Assembly (NCBI GenBank): GCA_945861265.1
Contig: CAMAUC010000008.1
Location: 1 to 64,000, forward strand
Direction: 5' to 3'
DNA from: Rhizobium sp. Q54
GTDB taxonomy: Bacteria; Pseudomonadota; Alphaproteobacteria; Rhizobiales; Xanthobacteraceae
Length of the DNA stretch: 64,000 bases
Both the position numbers and the translations under genes were made by a program. The stretch's first letter is position 1; every line of letters begins with the position of its first letter. The notes under the pieces were generated by a model. The model was not told where the DNA came from, did no database searches, and saw only the letters and a program-made list of their open reading frames with translations. Below are positions 3,844-23,636 of this stretch, in pieces.

Positions 3844-4350
3844 CTATTTCTTCCGCGGCGCGTAGTCCTGATTGGTGAAGGCCGGCGTCGTCGGCCGCTT
3901 GATGACGATGAAACCGTTCTCGGTGCCGACATGGCAGGCATTGCAGGCCTTGTTGAGCGCGTCGTAACCGGCGGCGAATTTCTTGAAATCCTTCGCTGCG
4001 ATGGCCTTTTCCAGATCGACGATTTCCTTGGTGATGACGGCGTCGAGCATCTGCGCCAGCGGCAGGTTCTTGAACACCGGCACATGGTCCTGCACGTCAC
4101 CCATGACTTCCTTGATCTCGCCAAGTTCGTAATCGGCGAGCGGCCAGTTTCCAGCCTGGGCGGCGAACCACAATTTGTTGTGCTCGGTGAGAATGACATT
4201 CATGAACTGCTCGAGGCCGGGGATGTAAACTTTCGGCACGGCAGCGGCGGGCGCGGCGGCCGGCGCCGGCACGGACGGCGTCTGCGCGAGGCCGACAAGC
4301 GGCACCAGCATCGCGGCGACAATGGCGGCGGCGATTGTGCGGAAATTCAT
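3844..4350 (-). CDS. Monohaem c-type cytochrome, exported
   Basis: 168 residues with an N-terminal signal peptide (MNFRTIAAAIVAAMLVPLVG, cleavage near GLAQ), then an Ala/Pro linker. A single haem attachment site CNACH lies near residue 138. The helical arrangement before it (EHNKLWFAAQAGNWPLADYE) resembles small cytochromes of the c' / c-556 type, where haem sits in the last helix. A periplasmic electron-transfer role is inferred. A GAGG sequence precedes the ATG. No redox partner gene adjoins it, so its pathway cannot be assigned. Confidence 0.8.
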   Translation of the reverse strand: MNFRTIAAAIVAAMLVPLVGLAQTPSVPAPAAAPAAAVPKVYIPGLEQFMNVILTEHNKLWFAAQAGNWPLADYELGEIKEVMGDVQDHVPVFKNLPLAQMLDAVITKEIVDLEKAIAAKDFKKFAAGYDALNKACNACHVGTENGFIVIKRPTTPAFTNQDYAPRKK

Positions 4351-4502
4351 CGGAGGACCTCGCTGATAAAGCGCGCCCGAAGTTTCGGAAAGCGCGCATG
4401 CAAATGAGTGTCACCGCGCGCGCGTTAAAGCAAGACGCCGAGCAAACATTGGAATTGGTCTAATTCGAAGCAGGATGGCGTCTGCGGCGATAGACGCGCG
4501 AT

Positions 4503-22152: not shown

Positions 22153-22365
22153 CGGGGGGCTCCTGAAGGCCTGGATGGAAAGTGCGGGTGACCCGCCGTT
22201 CTGGAGGGCGGAGAATGCCCGCTTGCGGTGGCCCTGCCAACCCGGCCTTCTCCGGCGGCGGCGGTGGCAATCCCCGGCGGCCTGCGCGCAAAAACCGCAC
22301 GACATTTGACCAAGCGCAAGACGGCGCGTCCGTTGTTAGCGCAAGCTTTTGCGAAGCGTTCTCAC

Positions 22366-22382
22366 ATTGGAATAATTCAAGA
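22366..22382. promoter_or_regulatory. Candidate Irr-binding iron control element (ICE-like)
   Basis: ATTGGAA-TAA-TTCAAGA is an inverted repeat of the ICE form, whose consensus in Bradyrhizobium and relatives is TTTAGAA-N3-TTCTAAA. By eye, 10 of 14 arm positions match. It lies 71 bases upstream of the cupredoxin ATG, in front of an iron-permease operon, which supports the assignment. Binding is inferred, not shown. Confidence 0.5.
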
Positions 22383-22452
22383 GTAAAAATAAGGACTTGC
22401 ATCGGCACGCGATAGTGGTTTTGTGAGCTTTGTCGAACCGATGGGAACCGCC

Positions 22453-22791
22453 ATGCGCCGGATGATCGCTCTTTTTGTGCCTTTTGCCATAGCCGCCCTG
22501 GTGACCCTGTCGCCGGCGACGGCGCACGCCCAGGATTTCAAGCTGACCATCAAGGACCACAAGTTCACGCCGGAAGAGCTGAAGGTGCCGGCCAATACCC
22601 GGGTCATCATCACCGTGGTCAACGAAGACGCCACCGCCGAGGAATTCGAAAGCAACATTCTCAAGGTCGAGAAGGTCATTCCCGGCAAGTCCAGCGGCAC
22701 CGTGCGCATCGGGCCGCTCAAGCCCGGCCGCTATCCCTTCGTCGGCGAGTTTCATGAAGCCACCGCCAAGGGCGTGGTCATTGCTGAATAA
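22453..22791 (+). CDS. Cupredoxin-like exported iron-transport accessory protein
   Basis: 112 residues from the ATG at 22453, with GGGA six bases upstream. A signal peptide (MRRMIALFVPFAIAALVTLS, cleavage near AHA) precedes a single cupredoxin beta-sandwich (DFKLTIKDHKFTPEELKVPA, then GPLKPGRYPFVGEFHEATAK). The usual type 1 copper ligands (Cys-His-Met) are not visible: where they belong the sequence reads GEFHEATAKG with no Cys. It precedes the FTR1 permease by 24 bases and probably handles iron in the periplasm for it. Confidence 0.8.
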   Translation: MRRMIALFVPFAIAALVTLSPATAHAQDFKLTIKDHKFTPEELKVPANTRVIITVVNEDATAEEFESNILKVEKVIPGKSSGTVRIGPLKPGRYPFVGEFHEATAKGVVIAE

Positions 22792-22814: not shown

Positions 22815-23636
22815 ATGCTTGGCGCACTGATTATCGTCTTTCGTGAAGTTCTCGAAGCCGGCCTGATCGTCGGCATCGTCATGGCGGCGACGCGCGGCGT
22901 CGAGGGCCGCGGTCGCTGGATCTCGATCGGCATCGGCGCCGGCGTCGTCGGCGCAGCCATTGTCGCGGCATTCGCCGGCGTCATCTCGCAGGCGTTCCAG
23001 GGCTCCGGTCAGGAACTGTTCAACGCCGGCATCCTCGCCGTCGCCGTGGTGATGCTGATGTGGCACAACGCCTGGATGGCGCGGCACGGCCGCGAGATCG
23101 CCGCCGAGATGCGCAATATCGGCACCGCCGTCAGCGAAGGCGCCAAGCCGCTGACCGCGCTGGCCGTCGTCATCGGCGTCGCGGTGCTGCGCGAGGGCTC
23201 CGAAGTCGTGCTGTTCCTCTACGGCATTCTGGCGTCGGGCACGTCCGGCGTGTCGATCGCGCTCGGCGGCCTGCTCGGCATTGTCGCCGGCGCGGCGTTC
23301 ACCGGGCTGACCTATTTCGGTCTTCTGGCTATTCCGCAGCGCTACATCTTTTCGGTCACGAGTTGGCTGATCGCGCTGCTCGCCGCCGGCATGGCCGCGA
23401 GTTCGGTGCAGTTTCTCAACAATGCAGGCTTTGCCGAAGTGCTCGGCAATACGGTCTGGGACACGTCATGGATTTTGTCGGAAGGCAGCATCCTCGGCAA
23501 GCTGATGCATACCTTGATCGGCTATACCGAGCGGCCGACCGAACTGCAGCTCACCGTCTATATCGGCACGTTGTTCGCCATGGGCCTGCTGATGCGCCTC
23601 GCGCGCTACCGGCCGCAGGAACGGGTGGCGGTCTAG
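22815..23636 (+). CDS. FTR1 family high-affinity iron permease
   Basis: 273 residues, polytopic with about seven helices. The two FTR1 iron-binding motifs are present: REVLE in IVFREVLEAGLIVGI (residues 10-14) and REGSE in VLREGSEVVLFLYGI. FTR1-type permeases move ferric iron, usually with a periplasmic partner that supplies or oxidises it. The upstream cupredoxin gene, 24 bases away, fits that role. An Irr-like site lies in front of the pair, so iron limitation probably induces it. Confidence 0.92.
   Translation: MLGALIIVFREVLEAGLIVGIVMAATRGVEGRGRWISIGIGAGVVGAAIVAAFAGVISQAFQGSGQELFNAGILAVAVVMLMWHNAWMARHGREIAAEMRNIGTAVSEGAKPLTALAVVIGVAVLREGSEVVLFLYGILASGTSGVSIALGGLLGIVAGAAFTGLTYFGLLAIPQRYIFSVTSWLIALLAAGMAASSVQFLNNAGFAEVLGNTVWDTSWILSEGSILGKLMHTLIGYTERPTELQLTVYIGTLFAMGLLMRLARYRPQERVAV

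Follow-up and report, generated by a model that had tools for sequence, protein, structure and literature searches.

The 17-bp box at positions 22366-22382 of the window, the whole 64,000-nucleotide stretch of DNA that was analysed, is very probably an Irr iron control element (ICE) that controls a cupredoxin-FTR1 operon and switches it on at low iron. The box lies on the + strand and reads ATTGGAA-TAA-TTCAAGA, ATTGGAATAATTCAAGA being its exact letters. It was assigned as a putative Irr operator by comparison, on the basis of its matrix score, its conservation among orthologues and the presence of the same variant before efeO-like genes, and on these likenesses it is predicted to be bound by Irr. 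The sequence-only reading had placed it 71 bases 5' of an iron-uptake pair, a distance that is valid when counted to the ATG at 22453.

The first gene of the operon (22453-22791, + strand) codes for a cupredoxin-like periplasmic protein (Cupredoxin_1, Pfam PF13473, 101.9 bits) and the second (22815-23636, + strand) for an FTR1-family iron permease (Pfam PF03239, 120.8 bits). The mechanical GTG start of the cupredoxin gene at 22423 is probably wrong and the true start is probably the ATG at 22453, since the GTG lies inside the inferred -10 while the ATG is conserved in the orthologues. As in the FtrABCD systems of Brucella and Bordetella, an FtrB-like cupredoxin is combined with an FTR1 permease, and judged by sequence the gene pair resembles FtrB-FtrC. 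The difference is that no FtrA (P19) or FtrD gene is adjacent, the operon being bordered by an aldo/keto reductase gene and by a helix-turn-helix-like ORF, each of which runs on the opposite strand, and that one of the two copper ligands predicted for FtrB, H121 and D118 (PMC11966278), is lost: in the alignment of the cupredoxin with the Brucella FtrB structure 8vuk (E 1.4e-15) the histidine is retained and the aspartate is not. The operon is also like EfeUOB in carrying an EfeU-type permease, but the permease scored 133.7 bits on the EfeU model, below the cut-off of 255, the cupredoxin stands in the place of EfeO, and the efeO-like protein of the genus had no match in the window's own genome.

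Comparison of the box with the ICE consensus TTTAGAA-N3-TTCTAAA revealed four mismatches in the 14 arm positions, in agreement with the 10/14 match claimed earlier. By itself this count is weak evidence, with no convincing margin over chance, because the 64-kb window contains four sites with four or fewer mismatches (none had three or fewer); first-order random versions of the upstream region of the box carried such a site in 5-9% of trials. An adjacent four-mismatch site at 22349-22365 was rejected as a tandem ICE, scoring -0.6 bits and not being conserved.

No other 17-mer upstream of the operon was as well conserved as the box across 28 orthologues, and identity to the window sequence over the 28 promoters, a count that omits five divergent aligned promoters (L011, L012, L081, L093 and L094), was 91% for the box, 95% for the hexamer TTGCAT and 88% for the -10, against 45% for the upstream sequence and 43% for the leader. 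Conservation and spacing mark TTGCAT (22397-22402, + strand) as the inferred -35, and the promoter alignment marks TTTTGTG (22419-22425, + strand) as the inferred -10, which reads TCATAT in the relatives L015 and L016; transcription is expected to start near 22431. The box ends 14 bases 5' of the conserved -35 and its centre lies at about -57 from the inferred start. In L015, L016, L065 and L067 the gap between box and -35 is 9 rather than 14, so that the box sits closer to the -35 by half a helical turn.

It is extremely unlikely that the box merely belongs to the core promoter TTGCGA-16-AATAAT at 22349-22376, or that an AT-rich stretch matches the ICE by chance. Such a reading draws on the promoter scan, which reports that pair, and on the frequency of 10/14 matches in random regions of like make-up given above, but both arms of the box are conserved and TTGCGA is not, the -35/-10 pair found further 3' is better conserved, and the relatives carrying ATTAGAACGATTCAATA have no AATAAT. 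The predicted TTGCGA-16-AATAAT promoter was rejected as not conserved.

The letters of the box that depart from the ICE consensus are themselves conserved, and where orthologous boxes vary they drift toward other ICE forms, those of L009 and L076 (two mismatches) and of L011 and L014-L016 (three mismatches) being nearer to the consensus. Cupredoxin identity falls to about 35-47% in other genera of the family; there, sites of 17-25 bits stand in many of the orthologous promoters and are missing from others, and several family genera have the operon without an ICE (L018, L021, L022, L024 and L027-L029). The efeO-like iron genes of the genus (L157, L158, L162, L184 and others) are preceded by a pair of ICE-like boxes separated by about 30-40 bp. 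Of each pair, one box is the variant found at the FTR1 operon, a likeness to EfeUOB that extends in L184 to the exact 17-mer.

An ICE matrix was built from 39 sites of the genus in mbfA, suf, bfr and irr promoters, the FTR1 sites being excluded. On this independent matrix the box at 22366-22382 scored 18.5 bits, while the best of 599,520 unselected positions of its own genome scored 14.1 bits and no position in 2 Mb of random sequence reached 18.5 bits; the own genome was covered by these sampled stretches plus pattern searches. The matrix also gives 14-16 bits to the Fur-like boxes of L093 and L100. ICE-like sites were found in the own genome at suf (C3), between a TonB receptor and PepSY gene pair (C46, three sites), and at bfr (C110), mbfA (C64) and irr (C12), with scores of 33.2 bits for suf, 29.3 for mbfA, 28.9 for TonB/PepSY, 21.7 for bfr and 15.0 for irr, of which those for suf, mbfA, bfr and irr are partly circular, their own sites having built the matrix, and that for FTR1 is not. 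The FTR1-operon box is thus 3-15 bits under the suf, mbfA, TonB/PepSY and bfr sites, yet above irr. The mbfA ICE of the own genome reads ATTGGAATAATTCTAAT on the opposite strand and has 14 of its 17 letters in common with the FTR1-operon box.

The whole genome was scanned with the pattern TTRGAANNNTTCNAR, which was widened to cover the FTR1-operon box. Six places were found, four of them at iron genes (suf, mbfA, TonB/PepSY and the cupredoxin-FTR1 operon); the others lay upstream of a homogentisate dioxygenase-like gene and at a place without an ICE-like score. The reversed control gave one place, so that similar sites are enriched at iron genes. A loose scan with TTTAGAANNNTTCTAAA at three mismatches was uninformative, with 25 places genome-wide against 32 in the reversed control and hence no excess.

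Other ICE-like sites were noted in the same genome. Three are clustered at G000:C46:16550-16695 (L170), between the divergent genes for the TonB receptor and the PepSY membrane protein. Another, of 16.0 bits, at G000:C1:39494-39510 (L245), precedes the gene for the homogentisate 1,2-dioxygenase-like protein, an iron enzyme, and is possibly a further Irr target. The window itself carries a second ICE at 4448-4464, ATTGGAATTGGTCTAAT, which scores 21.4 bits and lies about 98 bp before a gene on the minus strand (3844-4350) for a secreted protein that has a single c-heme motif, CNACH. This site is kept at 14.7-25 bits before ten orthologues in the genus, the window's own included, and is missing in five others; the gene is likely to be another Irr target.

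The host belongs to the Pseudolabrys clade of the Xanthobacteraceae, and the nearest named relatives of the FTR1 gene are from Pseudolabrys and the Hyphomicrobiales. Its genome encodes three Fur-family proteins, namely Irr, a Fur-type protein (C14) and a Zur-like protein. Irr scored over both curated cut-offs (NF045678, 214.3 bits, cut-off 150; NF045677, 210.9 bits, cut-off 170), carries an HHH motif and GCPWHDV, which includes the GCPW heme-regulatory motif, and its gene adjoins a fabA-like gene. The proposal of an Irr-bearing Rhizobiales host was thereby borne out. Control by Irr or RirA rather than by Fur had also been predicted; the choice of Irr over Fur stood, and neither refuting outcome named beforehand occurred, Irr being present and iron-gene sites enriched, while the RirA part was not supported. 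The only Rrf2 protein of the genome to pass the family cut-off lacks cysteine and reached 26.5 bits where the RirA cut-off is 193, and the other Rrf2 match was one sub-threshold fragment; RirA is likely to be absent from this assembly, which is 95.7% complete.

The presence of three Fur-family proteins might suggest that the box serves another of them, such as the Fur-type C14 protein, or a regulator not yet known whose motif is similar. At the operon in Pseudomonas, in Acetobacteraceae and at some further loci, Fur-like boxes take the place of the ICE, and no Irr scored over the cut-off in the genomes concerned; L094 has a Fur-like box at the operon, yet its genome bears Irr. We regard another regulator as very unlikely here, since the box is not of Fur type: the closest 7-1-7 match in the promoter to the one consensus tried, of enterobacterial type, has five mismatches, lies outside the ICE box and is not conserved. 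The box resembles instead the mbfA, suf and bfr sites, which are Irr targets in Bradyrhizobium.

With Irr as the regulator, the operon would respond to iron as follows. When iron is short, heme-free Irr would build up and bind the box just 5' of a weak promoter, where it would aid initiation by RNA polymerase and so bring about production of the cupredoxin-FTR1 uptake pair. With ample iron, heme arising at ferrochelatase would inactivate or destroy Irr and expression would drop. The heme-dependent switch is inferred by analogy with Bradyrhizobium because of the GCPW motif. Irr activates or represses depending on the location of the ICE (PMC7762939), and the placing of the box 14 bases 5' of the conserved -35, together with the iron-uptake function of the genes, suggests activation at low iron. 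That Irr, once bound to the box, acts as a repressor of the operon at low iron appears unlikely. Repression by Irr is known for mbfA and bfr (PMC4902296), but in R. sphaeroides the transcript of the Irr-repressed mbfA begins within the ICE (PMC3413700), whereas the present box lies 5' of the inferred -35, and shutting iron uptake during iron shortage makes little sense. In Brucella, Irr binds the ftrA promoter of FtrABCD, and reports on the sign of control conflict: one study found ftrA up in an irr mutant and also cites earlier Irr-dependent ftrA expression (PMC10374146). Brucella also has RirA, which the host of the window apparently lacks.

Among the closest known systems is the regulon that Irr controls through ICEs in Bradyrhizobium japonicum (mbfA, bfr, suf and fhuE), which is similar in having an Irr with GCPW, apparently no RirA, ICEs at mbfA, bfr and suf, and an Irr that acts as activator or repressor by the place of the ICE. 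Here, in contrast, the target is a two-gene cupredoxin-FTR1 operon whose box is conserved off-consensus (G4, A14 and G16). In B. japonicum the affinity of Irr for the mbfA and bfr promoters exceeds that for its other targets more than 200-fold (PMC4902296), and the lower score of the FTR1 uptake promoter fits this order. A tentative and somewhat doubtful extension is that a distinct, weak ICE form, ATTGGAATAATTCAAG, serves the uptake promoters of the clade and is held off-consensus by selection; uptake would then be activated only by high Irr levels, while lower levels would suffice to repress mbfA, bfr and suf, whose ICEs are strong.

On sequence grounds the cupredoxin-FTR1 operon is a well-supported new predicted target of an already known regulator, with Brucella ftrA as precedent. 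A well-footprinted iron-uptake operon, probably activated by Irr, is added for a lineage that has Irr and apparently lacks RirA; that Fur-like boxes precede this operon where Irr is missing exemplifies the replacement of one regulator by another. With its conserved departure from the consensus, the box bears on whether repressed and activated genes have ICEs of differently tuned strength.
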